DNA from: a virus
DNA: 21,935 bases
Strand: one strand, 5' to 3'
IMG/VR virus record: IMGVR_UViG_3300027911_000072
Location: 1 to 21,935 of that record
Positions 4,995 through 19,859 of the stretch are shown here, in pieces. The first letter of the stretch is position 1. Each line of letters opens with the position of its first letter. Made by a program: the position numbers and the translations under genes. The notes under the pieces were generated by a model. That model searched no databases, was not told where the DNA came from, and worked only from the letters and a program-made list of their open reading frames with translations.

Positions 4995-6518
4995 ATGTTT
5001 AACTGGCTATTTGGTAAAAAGGAAGAGGTTCAATCAGAACCACAAGCGCCAAAAAAGCGTAAAAGCTTATTCAGCACCCATGAGTTTGAAACATACGATC
5101 CGGCTTCATTGAAAGCCAAGATCGCTGATACACTTACAGCATTTGAAAAACAACAACCTGCTCTCTATGGCGAATACGCCATGGATGATTCAAGCAATGG
5201 TGTTCCTGGTTTCAAAATGTATGCTGCTGGTACGAACTCTGTATCAGACAACGTTGTGTATTGGTATGCTTCTCAAGGATTCATCGGTGCTCAGCTATGC
5301 GGCATCATTGCCCAAAACTGGTTAGTAAACAAAGCATGCTCAATGCCTGCTGATGATGCCATCCGTAAAGGCTACAATATTGTTACTGTGGATGGCGAAG
5401 AACTTGATCCAGAAGCAGTGAAAGTTATTAAAGCTTACGACAAAGCTTACCGAGTTACTTTCAACTTACGTGAGTTTATCCGTAAAGGAAGAATCTTCGG
5501 CGTTCGTGTGTTGATGTTCAAGGTAATGTCCACCGATCCAGATTACTACGAGAAGCCATTCAACATCGATGGCGTAACTCCAGGTAGCTACAAAGGTATG
5601 GTTCAAGTTGATCCGTACTGGACTGCTCCGATGCTTGATGGTGCATCAGCAAGTCAACCTGACACAATGCATTTTTATGAACCTACCTGGTGGATCATTA
5701 ACGGTAAGAAGATTCATAGATCGCACTTGATCATCTTCCGCCATGCTGAGCCAGTAGACGTTCTAAAGCCCCAATATATTTATGGCGGTATTCCATTGAC
5801 TCAACAGATCATGGAACGCGTATATGCAGCAGAAAGAGTTTCCAACGAAGCTCCAATGCTAGCTATGTCTAAGCGTACTACTGTTTGGTTGACCGATATG
5901 GAAGCGGTAATGCAGGATTCAAATGCTGCAGTAAGCCGCTTACAACAATGGGCACAATATCGCGATAACTATGGTGTGAAACTAGGTGATAAAGAAGGCG
6001 ATGAGTTTGCCCAATTTGATACATCATTGGCAGATTTTGATAATTTGATCATGACTCAGTATCAATTGGTTGCTGCAATCGCTAACGTGCCATCCACTAA
6101 GCTAATGGGTACACAGCCAAAAGGATTTAATTCCACTGGCGATTATGAAGAAGCAAGCTACCATGAAATGCTTGAATCACTTCAAACTCATGACCTAACC
6201 CCATTGCTTGAACGTCATCATCAATTGGTTATCAAATCTTTCGTTGAGCCACAACTCCGTAAGAAAATGACTTTGGAAACTACAGTCAATTGGTTGCCAT
6301 TGGATACACCAACAGCAGAAGAATTGGCAGCAACTAACCTTTCTAAAGCTCAGACTGATCAAGCACTTCTGGAAGCAGGAGCAATCTCTAGTGAAGATAT
6401 TCGCCAACGTGTTGCAACTGATAAAAACAGTGGCTACAATGAAATCGGTATCATGGAAGATGAAGATCCTGAAGCTTCAGAACTAGCTGAAAGAGATTAC
6501 CTTAAAGTTCCTGACTAA
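4995..6518 (+). CDS. Portal protein (DUF1073-type)
   Basis: This 507-residue protein forms the dodecameric ring at the capsid vertex through which DNA is packaged. It follows the large terminase gene and precedes MuF, the standard order. Recognisable portal features include the N-terminal RKGRIFGVRVLMF stretch, the YIYGGIPLTQQIMERVYAAE helix region in the middle, a conserved PSTKLMGTQPKGFNSTGD segment, and the C-terminal EELAATNLSKAQTDQALLEA region common in portal proteins. Length fits the DUF1073 family. Some database relatives carry an anti-CBASS Acb1 label; I see no paired catalytic histidine motifs here to support that. A TAGGGA element serves as ribosome binding site. Confidence 0.92.
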   Translation: MFNWLFGKKEEVQSEPQAPKKRKSLFSTHEFETYDPASLKAKIADTLTAFEKQQPALYGEYAMDDSSNGVPGFKMYAAGTNSVSDNVVYWYASQGFIGAQLCGIIAQNWLVNKACSMPADDAIRKGYNIVTVDGEELDPEAVKVIKAYDKAYRVTFNLREFIRKGRIFGVRVLMFKVMSTDPDYYEKPFNIDGVTPGSYKGMVQVDPYWTAPMLDGASASQPDTMHFYEPTWWIINGKKIHRSHLIIFRHAEPVDVLKPQYIYGGIPLTQQIMERVYAAERVSNEAPMLAMSKRTTVWLTDMEAVMQDSNAAVSRLQQWAQYRDNYGVKLGDKEGDEFAQFDTSLADFDNLIMTQYQLVAAIANVPSTKLMGTQPKGFNSTGDYEEASYHEMLESLQTHDLTPLLERHHQLVIKSFVEPQLRKKMTLETTVNWLPLDTPTAEELAATNLSKAQTDQALLEAGAISSEDIRQRVATDKNSGYNEIGIMEDEDPEASELAERDYLKVPD

Positions 6519-6520
6519 CT

Positions 6521-7351
6521 ATGGCTACTCGTAAACCCATTACAAAGAAGGGTGCGACAGGTAAGGCATTAAGACCTAATCTGAGTATTGGGTCCGACTT
6601 TGCTAAGCCACAAGTAGCTTTAATAGAATTGATGTACAAAGACATCAAACGGGAACTTATTAAAGTTTTTAAGCAAACCGATTTCACGTCGGCAATGGAT
6701 GCTTCAACCACTAGCCAAGCAAGGATAATCCTGAACTACCTGCTTCGTAAATGGTCTAAACGATTTGATGATATTGCTAAGAGTGCAGCCGAACGTATGG
6801 TTGAACGAACACTTCGCAATTCAGCAGTAACCCTTAACCTATCTTTAAAGGATGTGAGTGAGGATTTCAAAATTGATACATCTTTTAGCGATGAAAGATT
6901 AAAAGAAGTAATCAAAGCAAGTACACAGGAAGCAGCAAACCTCATCAAAGTTATTCCTGAACGATTCATCAATGACGTTCAAGGCCAAGTGATGAGAAGC
7001 ATTACTACCGGAAAGGGTTTGGCAGATTTAACTCCTTACCTGACTAAAATGTATCACGGTAATGTAAAGCGTGCAACCAATACAGCTTTGGATCAAACCC
7101 GTAAAGCTTACCAATCTATTAACACTACTAGATTAAAATCTCTTGGTGTTAAAAGTTTTATCTGGATTCACTCCGGAGGTGGTAAAGTACCCAGACAAGA
7201 GCATATTAGAATGTCTGGGAAAGAGTACAGATTCGACGACCCACCGGTAATCGGTACTATGTATGGATCGGAAGTACGGGGACTTCCCGGGGATTTACCA
7301 AATTGCCGATGTATTTGCAAACCTGTCATCAACTTTGATTTAGAGGATTAA
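6521..7351 (+). CDS. MuF/SPP1 gp7-type minor head (head morphogenesis) protein
   Basis: This 276-residue minor head protein would bind the portal and help head assembly. The N-terminal half is helical and charged. The C-terminal domain (about 180-270) carries the family pattern: TNTALDQTRKAYQ, then FIWIHSGGG, RQEHIRMSGK, YRFDDPP, and the cysteine motif PNCRCICKP at about 260-268. It starts 2 bases after the portal stop and lacks a clear Shine-Dalgarno sequence, so it is probably translated by coupling. It is followed not by the protease, as is common, but by a block of virion accessory and fibre genes. Confidence 0.92.
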   Translation: MATRKPITKKGATGKALRPNLSIGSDFAKPQVALIELMYKDIKRELIKVFKQTDFTSAMDASTTSQARIILNYLLRKWSKRFDDIAKSAAERMVERTLRNSAVTLNLSLKDVSEDFKIDTSFSDERLKEVIKASTQEAANLIKVIPERFINDVQGQVMRSITTGKGLADLTPYLTKMYHGNVKRATNTALDQTRKAYQSINTTRLKSLGVKSFIWIHSGGGKVPRQEHIRMSGKEYRFDDPPVIGTMYGSEVRGLPGDLPNCRCICKPVINFDLED

Positions 7352-10734: not shown

Positions 10735-12417
10735 ATGTTTGGCGTTAATCCCTTTTCCTATACGGCTATATCGGGAAACCCAAAACAACCAGTCATTTAT
10801 GTCCTTACCATTACCGAAGCAGGTAATGCTCAAGATTCTGAATCTGAAGTTGTTCAAGTTCCTACAGCAATAGTAGAAGCTGGTAATGCAGTAGATACTA
10901 CGTCGGAAATTATGACAGCTTCGATAGCTATTACTGAAGCAGGTACTGCTGTAGATACAGTAGCAGAGTCTATGTCAGCGCCTGTAAGCGTTTCAGAAAT
11001 AGCTAATGCTATTGATACTCCGTCTGAAAATATGACCGCAGGCGTAAGCCTAGCTGAGTCTGGGAATGCTTTAGATACAGTATCTGATGTAAACTTTGCA
11101 AGCTTAAATATTACTGAAGCAACAAGTGGATCAGATAGCTATTCTGAAACAATGGCTGCTCCAGTAAGTGTGTCCGAAATTGGTAATGCCCAAGACTCGC
11201 AGTCGGAAAATATGACTGCACCAATTAGCTTATCTGAATCAGGTAATGCTATTGATACTGTATCAGAAGCTATGACTGCTCCAGTTAGCTTATCCGAATC
11301 GGGTAATGCAATTGATACTCAGTCAGAAAATACTATTTCGGCTTTGCTTGTAAATGAAACAGGAAATGCTTTAGATAGCCAATCCGAAAGCATGACAGCT
11401 CCTGTATTCATAAGTGAATCGGGTAATGCGGTTGATACTCCATCCGAAAATATGACGGCTTCAGTTGATATAGCTGAAGCAGGTAATGCAGTAGATACGG
11501 TTTCAGAAAATACAACCACTCCAGTTACCGTTACTGAAGCAGCTAATGCTTTAGATACACAATCCGAAACTATGTCAGCTCCGGTTAGCGTATCCGAAAC
11601 CGGTAATGCAATAGATACCCAGTCAGAAAATATGACTGCAGGAGTTAGCGTATCTGAAACAGGTAATGCAGTCGATACGGTTTCAGAAAATATGACTGCT
11701 CCAGTTAGTTTAGCTGAAGCTGGTAATGCAGTAGCTACCCAATCGGAGAATATGATTTCTCCTCTTACCGTGTCTGAAACAGGTAATGCAGTAGCTACTC
11801 AATCGCAAAATATGACAGCTGGCTTAAGCGTGTCTGAAACTGGTAATGCTATAGACACAGTATCGGAGAATATGATTGCTCCAGTTAGTTTAGCTGAAGC
11901 GGCTAATGCTAGAGATAACTATAGCCAAAACTTAACAGCTTTCCTAACTGTTAATGAGTCTTCTTTAGCTTCTGATTCATATTCAGAAAATATGATAGCT
12001 TTATTGGCTATTGTAGAATCTGGATTAGCTAGCGATACAGTTACCGAGCAAATGATTTCCTATTTGGAAGTCAATGAGTCTGCAAATGCTGAAGATGTTG
12101 TATCGCAAAATATGATGGCTAATTTAACCGTCATAGAAAATGCAGCAGCACAAGATTTACAATCTTTGCTATTGATAGCAGCTTTACAAGTTGATGAGTT
12201 TGGAAATGCGCAAGATTCAACAAGTGAAGAAACCCATGTTATAGTTGCAGTTATAGAACAGGGTAATGCGACAGACATTTACTTTGTTGCTCCTATTTTC
12301 AGGCTTTCAGAAAATGTATGGCATGTATCACCTAGGAAAGATTTATGGCGTTTAGCACCTCGTACAGATTACTGGAAAGTTTCACCAAGAAAAGATTATT
12401 GGCGGCCAAATGAATAA
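10735..12417 (+). CDS. Virion-type protein made of 25 tandem 20-residue repeats
   Basis: This is a 560-residue protein. After a 24-residue N-terminus, residues 25-524 consist of 25 repeats of exactly 20 residues with no insertion or gap. The repeat pattern is roughly [ST]-[hydrophobic]-[ST]-E-[ATS]-G-N-A-[hydrophobic]-D-T-x-S-E-N-M-T-A-P-V. Repeats 3-18 are most alike; the last seven have diverged. It is rich in Ser, Thr, Ala, Glu and Asp and very acidic. Residues 525-560 change character to a basic/aromatic tail with 9-residue units ([33 protein letters not shown]). Similar acidic repeat proteins with such tails occur beside small Ig-like genes in other phages. I read it as a rod-like virion fibre or spacer; there is no enzyme motif. 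Confidence 0.8.
   Translation: MFGVNPFSYTAISGNPKQPVIYVLTITEAGNAQDSESEVVQVPTAIVEAGNAVDTTSEIMTASIAITEAGTAVDTVAESMSAPVSVSEIANAIDTPSENMTAGVSLAESGNALDTVSDVNFASLNITEATSGSDSYSETMAAPVSVSEIGNAQDSQSENMTAPISLSESGNAIDTVSEAMTAPVSLSESGNAIDTQSENTISALLVNETGNALDSQSESMTAPVFISESGNAVDTPSENMTASVDIAEAGNAVDTVSENTTTPVTVTEAANALDTQSETMSAPVSVSETGNAIDTQSENMTAGVSVSETGNAVDTVSENMTAPVSLAEAGNAVATQSENMISPLTVSETGNAVATQSQNMTAGLSVSETGNAIDTVSENMIAPVSLAEAANARDNYSQNLTAFLTVNESSLASDSYSENMIALLAIVESGLASDTVTEQMISYLEVNESANAEDVVSQNMMANLTVIENAAAQDLQSLLLIAALQVDEFGNAQDSTSEETHVIVAVIEQGNATDIYFVAPIFRLSENVWHVSPRKDLWRLAPRTDYWKVSPRKDYWRPNE
10807..12306 (+). repeat. 25 tandem 60-bp coding repeats
   Basis: These 1500 bases are an uninterrupted array with a period of exactly 60 bp. 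The DNA copies differ at many third codon positions while the protein pattern is kept (for example GGTAATGC[TA], GA[TC]AC, TC[AGC]GAAAA[TC]ATGAC at fixed places). This implies old duplications kept by protein-level selection rather than fresh slippage. Confidence 0.9.
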
Positions 12418-12775
12418 TTTCTATGTTTTAGAAAAACGAACCACAGAATCGATCTGGTACGATATTGATTGCACTTTGATCCTTGATCCTGTAGAAACTA
12501 TTGACACGATCATTAGCATTGAAGCTGATCAAGAAGGTTTAACTTTTGCAGGACAAGCAATCAATCCTGATCCAGTAGTTTTCCCAGACGGTTATACAGC
12601 TTTGCCGGGTAAAGTGATTTCTGTACAAATTGGCGGTGGAATTATTCCTACTCCCCAAATAAATCAGCTTTATACCATTAGAGCACTTTTTAATACCACG
12701 GAAAATAATACAAGAGAAGCCACAGTGCTTTTAAATGTAACTAATCTTCCAGTCCAAACAGGAAGGGTTTGCTAA
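12410..12775 (+). CDS. Small Ig-like phage virion protein
   Basis: This is a 121-residue protein overlapping the repeat-protein gene by 8 bases. The order [58 protein letters not shown] and [10 protein letters not shown] suggests a beta-sandwich like the small phage proteins with bacterial Ig-like folds that usually follow acidic repeat or decoration proteins. It is followed by the protease gene with a TAATG overlap. Function is not known; capsid or tail surface decoration is an inference. Confidence 0.65.
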
Positions 12776-14439
12776 TGCCACTTAAACCAGGATACTCAAA
12801 AGAAGTCCTTCAGGATAACATTAGAGAGCTAATTAAAGCCGGTCACGATCCTAAACAATCGGTAGCTATTGCTTACTCTAATGCTCGTAAATCCCATGGC
12901 GTAGATGCTGATGAATCTCATAAAAGGGATTTGAATGAAGAACCAGATTCGGAAATTGTTGCTTTTATAGTTTATACTGACGGGGACAGGATACTTTGGA
13001 TGCGTCGTACGAAAGATAATACCTGGGGCTTCCCAGGCGGACACGTAGAAGAAGGCGAATCAGCAATTGAAGGAGCTATTCGTGAATCTCGGGAAGAGAC
13101 CATGCATGTTCCTAAAACTGGTTTAAACTTAATTTATGAAGAAGGCAAAGTTCGTTTATTCGGTTGTAATGACGGAGAATTCGAACCCGACTTAAATGAT
13201 GAACATGATGCTTATGTTTGGGCTACTTTAGAGGACGCACCGGATCCTATGTTTCCGAAAATTGCTGACGACGCAGAACAAATTGCGGAAGAAGCTGAAG
13301 CTAATGCTTCGGCTATGGATAAACGTGAATATGATACCAATGGATGGTTTGAAGTAAAAGACAATCCTTTATCTATGGTAGGAGTATTTCCTTATTCCGG
13401 CGGATCAATCTCTCCTGAGTGCGATCAAAACAAGATTTATATGGTTTACCGTCCTGCAGAAGAACTTTCTTCCGCAGACTGTATCGATTCCTTTAAGCTG
13501 ATACCGTGGATTGATAACCACGTGATGCTAGGTAGCGAAGACGCAGGACTCACTCCTTCCGAACAAAAAGGAGTACAAGGCGTTATCGGACAAGAAGTTT
13601 ACTTTGATGGTAATACTCTTAAAGGTAACATTAAAGTATTTTCAGAAGCAATGGCTAATCTCATTGCTAATGGGAAAAAGGAATTGTCCTGCGGATACCG
13701 TTGCAGATATGAATATTCTCCCGGCGTTTTCGACGGAATGAAGTATGATTATGTGCAACGGGACATTCGAGGCAATCATCTTGCTCTGGTCGAAAACGGC
13801 CGTATGGGCCCGGATGTAGCGGTATTGGATCACTTCACTTTCACTGTAGATAACAAGGAGTTTTTAAACATGGCTGAAGAAAATAAAGTCGCTGAAGGCG
13901 GCGAAAAGAAGGAAATAACTCTTGAAGAAGCCCACAAGTTTCTTGAAGATGTTATGCCAAAATTGGCAAAAATCTTAGAATTGACTGGTCAATCAGCAGG
14001 TTCAGCAGGTTTAGAAGCTGTTGCTGACGAAGATACTGAGAAGCCTGATGGCGACGAAGAAAAACCAGGCAATATGATGGACGAAGAAGGTCCTGAATAT
14101 GGCGTTGGTGGTCAGAAAAAAGAAGAAAAAGAAGGCGAACGTGGTGCAGGTATGGACGCAGCAGCAATTGCTCGCACTGTACAAGCTAACATCGCTCAAA
14201 AATCTAAGCTATACGACAAGCTTTCTGCTCATATTGGCGCATTTGACCATGCTGATATGGATTTAGATAAGATGGCTAAGTATGGCTGCAAAAAACTTGG
14301 CTTGGAAGCCCCTAAAGAAGCTCGCGTAGTTGCTTTGGAAGCTTTCCTACAGGGCAAGGGTGCTCCAACTCGTACAGGTATGGATTCCATGCCAGCACGT
14401 AAGGGCAATTTCGTTCAACGTTTCTTAGAAGGTAAATAA
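12775..14439 (+). CDS. NUDIX hydrolase - head maturation protease (DUF2213) - scaffold fusion
   Basis: This 554-residue protein starts at ATG 12775 after AGGAAGGG and overlaps the previous stop (TAATG). Residues 1-40 ([10 protein letters not shown]...[13 protein letters not shown]) are a short module common at the start of phage head proteins. Residues about 58-165 are a NUDIX domain with box G89-x5-E95-x7-R103-E104-S-R-E107-E108; the last box glycine is Met110. Residues about 185-352 match DUF2213, a prohead protease; His249 (DNHVMLG) and Ser305 (LSCGY) are candidate catalytic residues. From about 366 there follows an acidic, Glu/Lys-rich scaffold-like region ending [20 protein letters not shown] and VQRFLEGK. 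The protease cuts scaffold and capsid during head maturation. The inserted NUDIX domain would cleave a nucleoside-diphosphate-linked substrate that I cannot name. An internal ribosome binding site allows the scaffold part to be made alone. Confidence 0.9.
13855..13872 (+). promoter_or_regulatory. Internal ribosome binding site and start codon for nested scaffold
   Basis: AAGGAG (13855-13860) lies 9 bases before an in-frame ATG (13870-13872, residue 366 of the protease fusion). It is one of the best Shine-Dalgarno matches in the window, although it sits inside a gene, and it falls exactly at the protease-scaffold boundary. Confidence 0.65.
13870..14439 (+). CDS. Predicted nested scaffold protein, same frame as the protease
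   Basis: This is a 189-residue product from the internal ATG, beginning [20 protein letters not shown]. It holds an amphipathic helix ([20 protein letters not shown]), a very acidic linker ([15 protein letters not shown]), a charged [10 protein letters not shown] stretch and a conserved C-terminal helical part ([30 protein letters not shown]). In phage lambda the scaffold Nu3 is translated from an internal start within protease gene C in the same frame, and this layout matches. Major capsid protein lies two genes downstream. The protein region is certain; its separate translation is inferred. Confidence 0.6.
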
Positions 14440-14441
14440 TC

Positions 14442-14954
14442 ATGACTGCTGCGACTTTTCAATCCACAGTTAACGTCAATCTGGGATTTGGAGTTCCCGG
14501 TGAATTGATTGTTGACGGTCCACAACGTGTTGACTCACTTACTCTTGACAGCACTGGTGGTACTATCGGTTTGGCTTTCACCAAATCAAATACTACTAAC
14601 GTAGCTACTCAAGGCGGTACTGTTACTCCAGGCACTTCCGTATTTGCTGGTATTTTGGTTAACCCAAAATCTTATGCTTCTTACGGCGCTGTTGGTGGTG
14701 CTCCTCTCGATCCAACTTTGTTCCTCGGTCCTAATACTCAAGGCGAGTTTATGACTATGGGTACGATCGTGGTTACTTTGGTTGGTGCTGCTAATATTGG
14801 TGACATCGTTCAATACAACACTACAACTGGTGTTCTCTCTGCACTCACCCCTGGTAGCTCTGCTTCCTCTGGTAATGCATTGATTCCTAATTGCGTTGTT
14901 TGGAATTACCCAACAAGCGGTACTGGCTTAGCTGCTATCCGTATCACTGAATAA
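14442..14954 (+). CDS. Capsid cement/decoration protein
   Basis: This 170-residue beta-rich protein begins 2 bases after the protease gene, with AAGG upstream. It matches the phage structural cement family: VNVNLGFGVPGELIVDGPQR near the N-terminus, then FAGILVNPKSYASYG, TQGEFMTMGTIVVTLVGAAN, IGDIVQYNTTTGVLSAL, and the ending GTGLAAIRITE. Such proteins stabilise the expanded capsid from outside. Its place between the protease and the major capsid gene is typical. Confidence 0.85.
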   Translation: MTAATFQSTVNVNLGFGVPGELIVDGPQRVDSLTLDSTGGTIGLAFTKSNTTNVATQGGTVTPGTSVFAGILVNPKSYASYGAVGGAPLDPTLFLGPNTQGEFMTMGTIVVTLVGAANIGDIVQYNTTTGVLSALTPGSSASSGNALIPNCVVWNYPTSGTGLAAIRITE

Positions 14955-14967
14955 CAAGGACTGAAAC

Positions 14968-16068
14968 ATGAACAAATCTATCGAACGCAGCTCACTCTCA
15001 CCACGTCAAGTTGGCGTGGTGCAAATGTCCGCCGATGATGTTTCCGATTACGCTGCACTCGGAGACCTCGGTATTAACTTTGGTACTCAAAATATCAAGG
15101 CAATGGCTAACTACGCAATGGATACCCAAAGCGATGTTACCACTCCTTCTATTACTACTCCAGTTCAGTTCTTGCAAAACTGGCTTCCTGGCTTTGTTAA
15201 AGTAATTACAGCAGCTCGTAAAATCGACGAACTCTGCGGTATTACTACTACAGGTTCTTGGGAAGATCAAGAGATCGTTCAAGGTCTGTTGGAACCAATT
15301 GGTAACGCTGTTCCTTATGGCGATTACACAAACGTTCCTTTGGCTTCTTGGAACACCAACTTCGTACGCCGCACTGTGGTTCGTTTCGAAAAAGGTATCA
15401 AAGTAGGCATGTTGGAAGAAGCACGTGCAGCTCGCATCCGTATCAGCACTTCTGCTGAAAAACGTGCATCTGCAGCTTTGGCTTTGGAAATTCAACGTAA
15501 CTTGGTTGGCTTCTACGGTTTCAATAACGGTAGCAACTTGACTTATGGTTTTTTGAATGATCCAGGTTTGCCAGCGTACGTAACAGTTGCTGCAACTGGT
15601 ACAGGTGGTTCTACTCTTTGGTCTACTAAGACTTTCTTGCAAATCGTTGCTGACATTCGTGTTGCTGCAGCTCAATTGCAAACTCAGTCTCAAGACACAA
15701 TCAACCCAGAAGATGCAGAATTGACTTTGGCATTGCCAACCAATTCTTACCAATATCTGTCAGTTACTTCTGACTTCGGTATTTCAGTTCGTGATTGGTT
15801 GAACAAGACTTATCCTAAGTTACGCGTAATTTCAGCTCCTCAGTTGAACTTGGCTAACGGTGGTGCTAACGTGTTCTACCTCTACGCTGAAAAAGTTGAA
15901 AATGGTGCTAGCGACGACAGCCGTACTTGGGTACAAGTTGTTCCAGCTAAGTTCCAAGCTTTGGGTGTTGAGAAACAAGCTAAAGCCTACGAAGAAGATT
16001 ATGCCAACGCTACTGCTGGTGTGCTTTTGAAGCGTCCTTATGCTGTAGTTCGCTACTCAGGTATCTAA
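14968..16068 (+). CDS. Major capsid protein (DUF2184-type)
   Basis: This 366-residue shell protein has an AACAAGGA ribosome binding site. Family-typical segments are VQFLQNWLPGFVKVITAARK, then IDELCGITTTGSWEDQEIVQ, TNFVRRTVVRFEKGIKVGML, AALALEIQRNLVGFYG, AELTLALPTNSYQYLSV, and the C-terminal GVLLKRPYAVVRYSGI. The set cement, DUF2213 protease and this capsid family usually occur together, which supports the call. A long open frame on the opposite strand is only a shadow of this strongly biased gene. Hairpins follow the stop, as expected after a very highly expressed gene. Confidence 0.92.
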   Translation: MNKSIERSSLSPRQVGVVQMSADDVSDYAALGDLGINFGTQNIKAMANYAMDTQSDVTTPSITTPVQFLQNWLPGFVKVITAARKIDELCGITTTGSWEDQEIVQGLLEPIGNAVPYGDYTNVPLASWNTNFVRRTVVRFEKGIKVGMLEEARAARIRISTSAEKRASAALALEIQRNLVGFYGFNNGSNLTYGFLNDPGLPAYVTVAATGTGGSTLWSTKTFLQIVADIRVAAAQLQTQSQDTINPEDAELTLALPTNSYQYLSVTSDFGISVRDWLNKTYPKLRVISAPQLNLANGGANVFYLYAEKVENGASDDSRTWVQVVPAKFQALGVEKQAKAYEEDYANATAGVLLKRPYAVVRYSGI

Positions 16069-18368: not shown

Positions 18369-19859
18369 ATGAGCACCATTCCTTTTTCGCAAGTAGTCCA
18401 AGTCGTTCCCTCAGTCCTATCGGCTAATGGCGTAGCAGTTGACCTGAATGGTCTAGTGCTTACCCAGAACGCCCTAGCGCCAAATGGAGCAATTCTTCAA
18501 TTTTCTGACGCAGCAGCTGTACAAAGTTACTTTGGAGCAAATTCTAGCGAAGCTTCAGTAGCAGATGTTTATTTCAACGGCTATAACAATGGCACTCAAT
18601 TGCCAGGCGCTTTGCTAATGACTCGTTATCCAGAAACAGCAATTGCTGGTTGGTTACGTAGTGGCTCTTTGGCTAATGTTACATTAGGCCAATTACAAGC
18701 TTACACAGGTGTTTTAGTAATCACTGTTGCTGGTGTGGCTAAAACTTCTGGTACTATTAACCTCTCTGGGGCAACAAGCTTTAGTAATGCAGCTGCTATT
18801 ATTCAAGCCGCATTTACAAGCCCAGGTTTCACAGTAACATTTGATTCCACTACAAGTGCTTTCATCTTTACTACTACAACTACTGGCGCTACTCAAACTA
18901 TGAGCTATGCTGCTACTGGATCATTAGCAACAGAATTGCTATTGACTCAAGCTACTGGCGCAACTCTTTCCCAAGGCGCAGACGTTGCTTCTCCAGCATC
19001 ATTTATGGCTGGTATCTTGAATCAAAATCAAAACTGGGCTACTTTCATGACAGTTTGGGAAGCTCAATCCTCTGAGAAACAAGCTTTTGCACAATGGAGT
19101 AATTCAGCAGCACCTCGTTGGTTGTATGTTTGCCAAGATTCAGATCCAAATGCAATTATTGCTGGTTCTACAACTACTTTCGGTAACTATCTCCAAGTTA
19201 ATGAATTGACAGGTACTTGCCCAATTTATGGCGATTTAACTCACGCAGCATTTGTTTGCGGATTTGCAGCTTCTTTGAACTTCGGCCGATTGAACGGACG
19301 TGCAACTTTGGACTTTAAATCTCAATCAGGTTTGGTTCCATCTGTTACTACTTCTACTGCATACAATGCTGCTATTGGTAATGGCTATAACGTGTACGGC
19401 GCTTTTGGCTCTAACAATCCTGCTAACAATGCTAACTGGTTTGCTCCAGGTTCAGTATCTGGCAATTGGAAGTGGGCTGATACTTACTTGAACCAAATTT
19501 GGCTTAATGCTAATCTTCAATTGGCTATGGTTAATTTGTTGCAAGAAACTAGCGCAGTACCTTATAACAGTCAAGGTAATGGTTTGATTTACTCAGCTGC
19601 ATTGGACCCAATCAATGCTGCAGTAAACTTCGGAGCTATCCGTGCAGGTATTAACGTATCAGCTGCTCAAGCTGCTGAGATTCAATATGCAACTGGCGTA
19701 AATGCAGCTCCAATGATTGCTGCACAAGGTTTCTATTTGCAGATTTTGCCAGCTACCGCTCAAACTCGTGCAGCTAGACTCTCGCCTCCAATTACGTTAT
19801 ATTACCAAGACGGTGAAGCTGTTCAACAGATCACTATGGCTTCTATTGCTATTCAATAA
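18369..19859 (+). CDS. Tail sheath protein (DUF3383)
   Basis: This 496-residue protein forms the outer contractile sheath that drives tail injection, and shows that the phage is a myovirus. It has AGGAG before ATG 18369. DUF3383-type features: IPFSQVVQVVPSVLSANGVA at the N-terminus, LMTRYPETAIAGWLRSG, a variable Thr/Ala-rich domain (about 100-215), then WATFMTVWEAQSSEKQAFAQ, YGDLTHAAFVCGFAASLNF and the conserved C-terminal part (NLLQETSAVPYNSQGNGLIY, FYLQILPATAQTRAARLSPP). The following gene is the tube protein. Confidence 0.92.
   Translation: MSTIPFSQVVQVVPSVLSANGVAVDLNGLVLTQNALAPNGAILQFSDAAAVQSYFGANSSEASVADVYFNGYNNGTQLPGALLMTRYPETAIAGWLRSGSLANVTLGQLQAYTGVLVITVAGVAKTSGTINLSGATSFSNAAAIIQAAFTSPGFTVTFDSTTSAFIFTTTTTGATQTMSYAATGSLATELLLTQATGATLSQGADVASPASFMAGILNQNQNWATFMTVWEAQSSEKQAFAQWSNSAAPRWLYVCQDSDPNAIIAGSTTTFGNYLQVNELTGTCPIYGDLTHAAFVCGFAASLNFGRLNGRATLDFKSQSGLVPSVTTSTAYNAAIGNGYNVYGAFGSNNPANNANWFAPGSVSGNWKWADTYLNQIWLNANLQLAMVNLLQETSAVPYNSQGNGLIYSAALDPINAAVNFGAIRAGINVSAAQAAEIQYATGVNAAPMIAAQGFYLQILPATAQTRAARLSPPITLYYQDGEAVQQITMASIAIQ

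Follow-up and report, generated by a model that had tools for sequence, protein, structure and literature searches.

An apparently intact NUDIX domain fused to a phage head maturation protease, with a predicted cleavage motif between them

What does a NUDIX domain do inside the protease that matures a phage head? The question is raised by IMG/VR virus record IMGVR_UViG_3300027911_000072, of which positions 1 to 21,935 (21,935 bases; "the window", the whole stretch of DNA analysed) come from a freshwater phage and encode a myovirus-like head and tail module comprising terminase, portal, MuF-like protein, protease, cement, capsid and a sheath-like protein. One open reading frame (ORF) joins a short N-terminal module (N-module), a NUDIX domain, a DUF2213 protease domain and a scaffold-like region in a single chain. 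The NUDIX domain, its conserved catalytic residues, the selection acting on it, its behaviour as a cassette and a conserved motif at its boundary with the protease were computed directly. We propose, with belief and doubt about evenly balanced, that a prohead protease-scaffold carries a competent NUDIX as N-terminal cargo, which is cut free in the head and injected. The parts of the ORF are:

12775..14439, plus strand: the whole ORF (554 amino acids (aa) plus stop), N-module, NUDIX, DUF2213 head-maturation protease and scaffold-like C-terminus
12775..12906, plus strand: N-module, residues 1-44 (phrog_2423), two helices and then a disordered linker (45-57)
12958..13251, plus strand: NUDIX domain, residues 62-159 (Pfam; predicted local distance difference test, pLDDT, about 90; Foldseek)
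13039..13110, plus strand: NUDIX box, residues 89-112, six key residues invariant in 76/76 homologues
13312..13320, plus strand: A180-M181-D182, motif between NUDIX and protease at which maturation cleavage is predicted
13324..13833, plus strand: DUF2213 protease domain, residues 184-353 (Pfam PF09979, E=4e-42)
13855..13872, plus strand: AAGGAG Shine-Dalgarno-like sequence and ATG of M366, candidate internal start at the protease/scaffold boundary
13870..14436, plus strand: scaffold-like C-terminal region, residues 366-554, helical or disordered in the model

The initial annotation of this DNA, made from its letters alone, had described a 554-residue ORF at 12775-14439 in which a short N-terminal module, a NUDIX box and a DUF2213 domain follow one another with no frame break. 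The sequence and its translation bear out the ORF, its ends, its length and its uninterrupted frame, and profile matches confirm the order of the domains. The Pfam NUDIX profile (PF00293) matches residues 62-159 significantly (E=4.7e-16; 59.4 bits against a cut-off of 21.1), and the N-module matches phrog_2423 (E=2e-16). The best match of phrog_3778 ("head maturation protease"), a family that includes the PB1-like proteases of Pbunavirus, covers residues 1-453 of the window protein. Since this single match spans both domains, the fused architecture is already present in the PHROG database; all 26 representative homologues also match phrog_3778. Of 81 aligned sequences, made up of the window plus 80 viral loci that include some duplicates, 76 have the same NUDIX box in frame. 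Cultured Curvibacter, Paraburkholderia and Rhizobium strains likewise have contigs with fusion ORFs. An assembly chimera was rejected because the identical fusion recurs across numerous independent contigs as well as those from cultured bacteria.

The box itself is exactly as first annotated. Of the consensus GX5EX7REUXEEXGU it has the G, E, RE and EE (G89, E95, R103, E104, E107 and E108, invariant in all 76 viral sequences), while the final Gly is Met110 and the hydrophobic U after RE is Ser. Position 110 varies freely among the homologues (M 38, G 16, A 8, Q 5, also C and others). Met110 was rejected as a sign of inactivity, as this position varies while the glutamates stay fixed and is Gly in 16 homologues of the same architecture. 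An AlphaFold2 model of residues 1-170, built from 26 sequences, has a mean pLDDT of 81.6 (about 90 for the NUDIX part) and places the two N-module helices at 9-21 and 26-40. Foldseek matched this model to solved NUDIX enzymes of the PDB throughout (best E 1.5e-9; 4dyw with a template modelling (TM) score of 0.74 by target), and so prediction and fold search agree on a NUDIX fold. The full-length model (mean pLDDT 56) is poor outside the NUDIX domain and part of the protease, and inter-domain geometry is not claimed from it. A chance NUDIX-like box is rejected by profile, fold and conservation. The ratio of nonsynonymous to synonymous substitution rates (dN/dS; median of pairwise values) is 0.047 in the NUDIX domain and 0.052 in the protease, compared with 0.131 in the N-module and 0.158 in the scaffold-like region. 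The NUDIX domain is thus under purifying selection as strong as that on the protease. Together with the invariant residues, this matches the expectation for an active enzyme, and the NUDIX looks intact and catalytically competent. Its best PDB profile matches are scattered over dihydroneopterin-triphosphate, MutT, Dcp2 and RppH enzymes.

The boundary between the NUDIX and protease domains carries the triplet A180-M181-D182. Across the 81 sequences it reads AMD in 54, GMD in 19, ALD in 3, AQD in 2, SMD in 2 and TMD in 1: the Asp is invariant (81/81), the middle residue is M in 76, L in 3 and Q in 2, and the residues upstream are more variable. A locus of Curvibacter lanceolatus ATCC 14669 (L122) carries QMD instead of A/GMD ahead of the protease. 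An internal start at M181, which would give a NUDIX-free protease, was rejected; no Shine-Dalgarno sequence precedes it in any homologue examined, and the residue is Leu (CTG) in the loci L017 and L018. Further copies of the motif are found in the same protein and in other head proteins of the window:

14149..14157, plus strand: G459-M460-D461, within the scaffold region; invariant M and D (71/71)
14377..14385, plus strand: G535-M536-D537, near the C-terminus; D in 67/68
5178..5186, plus strand: A62-M63-D64 of the portal; D in 17/17 aligned portals, middle residue M, Q or V
6692..6700, plus strand: A58-M59-D60 of the MuF-like protein; D in 23/23 aligned sequences, middle residue M, Q or V
15115..15123, plus strand: A50-M51-D52 of the major capsid protein; MD in 51/51 aligned capsid sequences

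The portal, MuF and capsid copies all lie in N-terminal regions. Five head proteins contain six [A/G]MD motifs against 0.62 expected, a number reached in 0 of 5000 shuffles, though the motif was picked after viewing the window and the shuffle P value is therefore exploratory; the 18 other window proteins contain one against 0.96 expected. A more independent test comes from the families, in which the middle-residue variation of portal and MuF resembles that at the NUDIX/protease boundary.

The motif can be related to cleavage through Pbunavirus. The capsid AMD (50-52) of the window aligns with AMD 62-64 of the E217 and Pa193 capsid proteins (9b40/8frs). The capsid models of the two phages are limited to residues 66-382, and the ordered capsid begins directly after AMDS 62-65; for the unseen N-terminus, the E217 authors suggested either cleavage or disorder. 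The first 93 residues of the Pa193 portal have neither density nor peptides in liquid chromatography-mass spectrometry, and the portal of another Pbunavirus, SCUT-S1, carries AMD at 70-72. There is also precedent for trimming of internal and ejection proteins by a prohead protease, in T4 by gp21 and in SPN3US by a protease acting at AXE motifs, which are short and end in an acidic residue like [A/G]-x-D. By analogy with AXE, the cut is placed after the Asp. Cleavage after D182 is predicted to free residues 1-182, an N-module-NUDIX piece of ~20 kDa, inside the head. As with the T4 internal proteins and Alt and the SPN3US ejection proteins, a prohead protease would trim an injected head-internal protein, but the cargo in T4 and SPN3US is a separate protein, whereas the window phage would carry it within the protease polypeptide. 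No earlier description of an [A/G]MD cleavage motif between a cargo and a protease was found in the literature searched, which covered few subscription journals.

A virion location would be compatible with the N-module, since a free-standing copy has been detected by mass spectrometry in SCUT-S1 virions (ORF22, 7.46 kDa, 7 peptides, 77% coverage; PMC6521218). The SCUT-S1 protease, ORF24, was likewise detected (14 peptides; PMC6521218). The initial annotation had offered, as one option, that the NUDIX part is packaged or clipped off during head maturation. This option gains indirect support on two counts: i) the conserved boundary motif recurs in capsid, portal and MuF; and ii) the free-standing N-module is a virion protein. 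At two loci, L125:5824-7581 and L030:4926-6770, the NUDIX is preceded not by phrog_2423 but by another short module (SExQxRAMEAAAHGHSTLGIP..VGEEFV), which in L030 is phrog_16759.

The proposed sequence of events is as follows. The protease/scaffold part would bring the whole protein into the prohead. During maturation the protease would cut after [A/G]-x-D in the capsid, the portal, MuF and its own chain, and the cut after A180-M181-D182 would release the N-module-NUDIX fragment within the head. The fragment would be retained and ejected alongside the DNA. In the newly infected cell, the NUDIX may hydrolyse a nucleotide of the NDP-X type (a nucleoside diphosphate linked to a moiety X), with ADP-ribose or NAD-type signals as a published guess. 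Cleavage, retention, injection and the substrate are what we infer.

Fusions of this kind have been described before. Iyer et al. (Viruses 2022, section 3.5.2; PMC9503650) list MuF, portal and the head serine peptidase as partners of Nudix fusions, and that section already proposes packaging and injection of the fused Nudix. The suggestion in the initial annotation that no function had been described was, thus, wrong. The architecture and the packaging idea are already known, and the window protein, in which Nudix and head protein share a polypeptide, is a further case of the head-protein-fused Nudix. No cleavage site for these fusions was seen there, whereas one is proposed here. The paper's label for them is T4 NudE-like; our tree did not reproduce this clade placement. 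In it the NudE relatives PM2 and ZQ3 were placed elsewhere with weak support, and T4 NudE, having failed the box filter, was left out. DUF2213 has also been listed with PF00293 (NUDIX), LPD3 and DUF1073 as Pfam architectures (PMC8770471, 2022). Polyvalent virion-packaged effector proteins form a class marked by virion presence and injection (PMC5512222). Virion mass spectrometry of a NUDIX-fused head protein was not found in the open-access literature, subscription papers being outside the search.

Among cultured phages, as many as 790 records have a match to some part of the window protein, which in some of them may be the NUDIX alone. The NUDIX-protease fusion was found in 12 of the cultured-phage records, all of the phrog_6216 type. 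This family, labelled unknown function, includes Pantoea PdC23 gp04, Klebsiella Chronis, Yersinia 29.18 and Shewanella QDWS. Like the window protein, its members have an N-terminal NUDIX on a DUF2213-type protein in the same gene slot; unlike it, they have a divergent protease and another or no N-module, and they lack [A/G]MD both at the boundary and in the capsid. In the records of Yersinia phages such as vB_YenM_29.18, the NUDIX-protease (L031:5073-6704) is annotated "glycosyl transferase", a domain that Pfam does not find in it. The Naesvirus phages (Bcep1, Bcep43, Bcep781 and BcepNY3) have a related NUDIX on a head protein, but at the C-terminus of the portal, and the BcepNY3 protease has none. 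In the cultured Pbunavirus examined, unlike the window, protease and N-module are separate genes and no NUDIX is fused.

Several observations weigh against release and injection of the NUDIX. A short motif is involved, and what ties it to cleavage is Pbunavirus disorder and missing peptides, not mapped N-termini. PdC23 and QDWS have no boundary motif, and their capsid apparently has no N-terminal extension; therefore, release cannot be general. In Naesvirus, the stretch just ahead of the portal NUDIX contains no such motif. None of the NCBIfam enzyme models scored as high as its cut-off, and so no substrate could be assigned by sequence. A search for cleavage data, virion mass spectrometry or an enzyme assay found none for any family member.

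An active NUDIX might instead work in the cell late in infection, for example in nucleotide house-cleaning, and be fused only for convenient expression without being delivered by the virion. Active-site conservation and purifying selection are equally expected of such an enzyme, and viral Nudix domains are typically stand-alone proteins according to PMC9503650. However, the NUDIX recurs in the head module, on the protease in two families, on the portal C-terminus in Naesvirus and free-standing in Bm1, where a separate NUDIX gene lies between MuF and the protease (the N-module match is apparently in the next small ORF). A prohead-bound fusion would also be a poor route to a soluble enzyme, and we consider late action in the cell rather unlikely.

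Relatives of the protease bear on another possibility, that the NUDIX stays attached and regulates or positions the protease/scaffold, nucleotide binding, for example, timing maturation. In the window protein's family the NUDIX is always N-terminal to an otherwise intact protease, as such a role would have it. The protease of L095, however, is 73% identical and is preceded by the N-module without NUDIX, and those of L094 (75% identical) and L113 (55%) have neither; N-module and protease are also found in Obolenskvirus IME-AB2. The NUDIX domain is thus a cassette, and it is not needed for head maturation because relatives with 73-75% protease identity do without it. Furthermore, a linker carrying the motif predicts separation, and all the metal-binding glutamates are kept although a regulator need not keep them. 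Regulation by an attached NUDIX is, on this evidence, quite improbable. The other option in the initial annotation was a non-catalytic structural insert. A NUDIX that is catalytically dead and acts as structural or filler material in the scaffold could appeal to the Met in place of the last box Gly, a variable position in relatives. This is hardly credible given metal and catalytic residues invariant in 76/76, a dN/dS as low as that of the protease, and Gly at that position in 16 same-architecture homologues, so that the position does not indicate lost activity. The fusion is confirmed, and its enzyme is apparently intact.

H249 and S305 are invariant in 26/26 homologues and are the putative catalytic residues of the protease. 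The gene order fits a head maturation protease, the ORF standing before the cement and capsid genes:

starts at 14442, after the protease ORF: cement gene
starts at 14968, after the protease ORF: capsid gene
18369-19859: sheath-like protein

In Pbunavirus Pa193, the equivalent gene place is occupied by the putative scaffold gp24. The Shine-Dalgarno-like sequence ahead of M366 is kept in the homologues, as AAGGAG in 57 and AAGGAA in 7, and BcepNY3 has an annotated nested gene, 13', in the corresponding position. A second product starting at M366, a nested scaffold protein of 189 residues, is likely.

Other features were noted in passing. The window encodes at 10735-12417 a 560-residue protein consisting mostly of a ~21-residue repeat (..SENMTAPVSVSExGNAxDTQ..), for which no family match was found; it adjoins a gp77-like fibre-tail adaptor gene. 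The protein in the same slot is 103 aa long in L094 but 419 aa long in L095, and the repeat number is apparently variable. A 251-residue open frame opposite the capsid gene (14998-15753, minus strand) is probably an antisense shadow ORF. The portal homologue L113:112-2103 has a C-terminal extension with DHPRADNGQFGSGG and a ParB-like IDGHHRTARD stretch, which, judged by eye, may be another effector-like domain on a head protein. An 820-residue ORF of a Gallibacterium anatis contig (L126:4831-7290) encodes a DUF2213-like protease whose N-terminal region is of another kind and not NUDIX.

In the relatives, the protease N-terminus carries NUDIX, the N-module alone, other domains or nothing, and it seems to be a slot for varied fusions. 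It is conceivable, and we put it forward tentatively, that the protease carries an enzyme as its own propeptide, freed in the closed prohead by the same cleavage that matures capsid, portal and MuF, and that its N-terminus is a general cargo slot. If so, the protease itself would set the copy number and the timing of the injected NUDIX. No mechanism by which a fused enzyme becomes an injected internal protein was found in the literature searched; the predicted cleavage, if it holds, would explain how an enzyme fused to the head protease turns into one. The motif is, moreover, a candidate cleavage motif for DUF2213 proteases and bears on whether the N-termini of the Pbunavirus capsid and portal are cleaved or disordered. 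Should the predicted cleavage be correct, the NUDIX could also be regarded as a candidate enzyme of counter-defence or takeover that acts in the first minute of infection.
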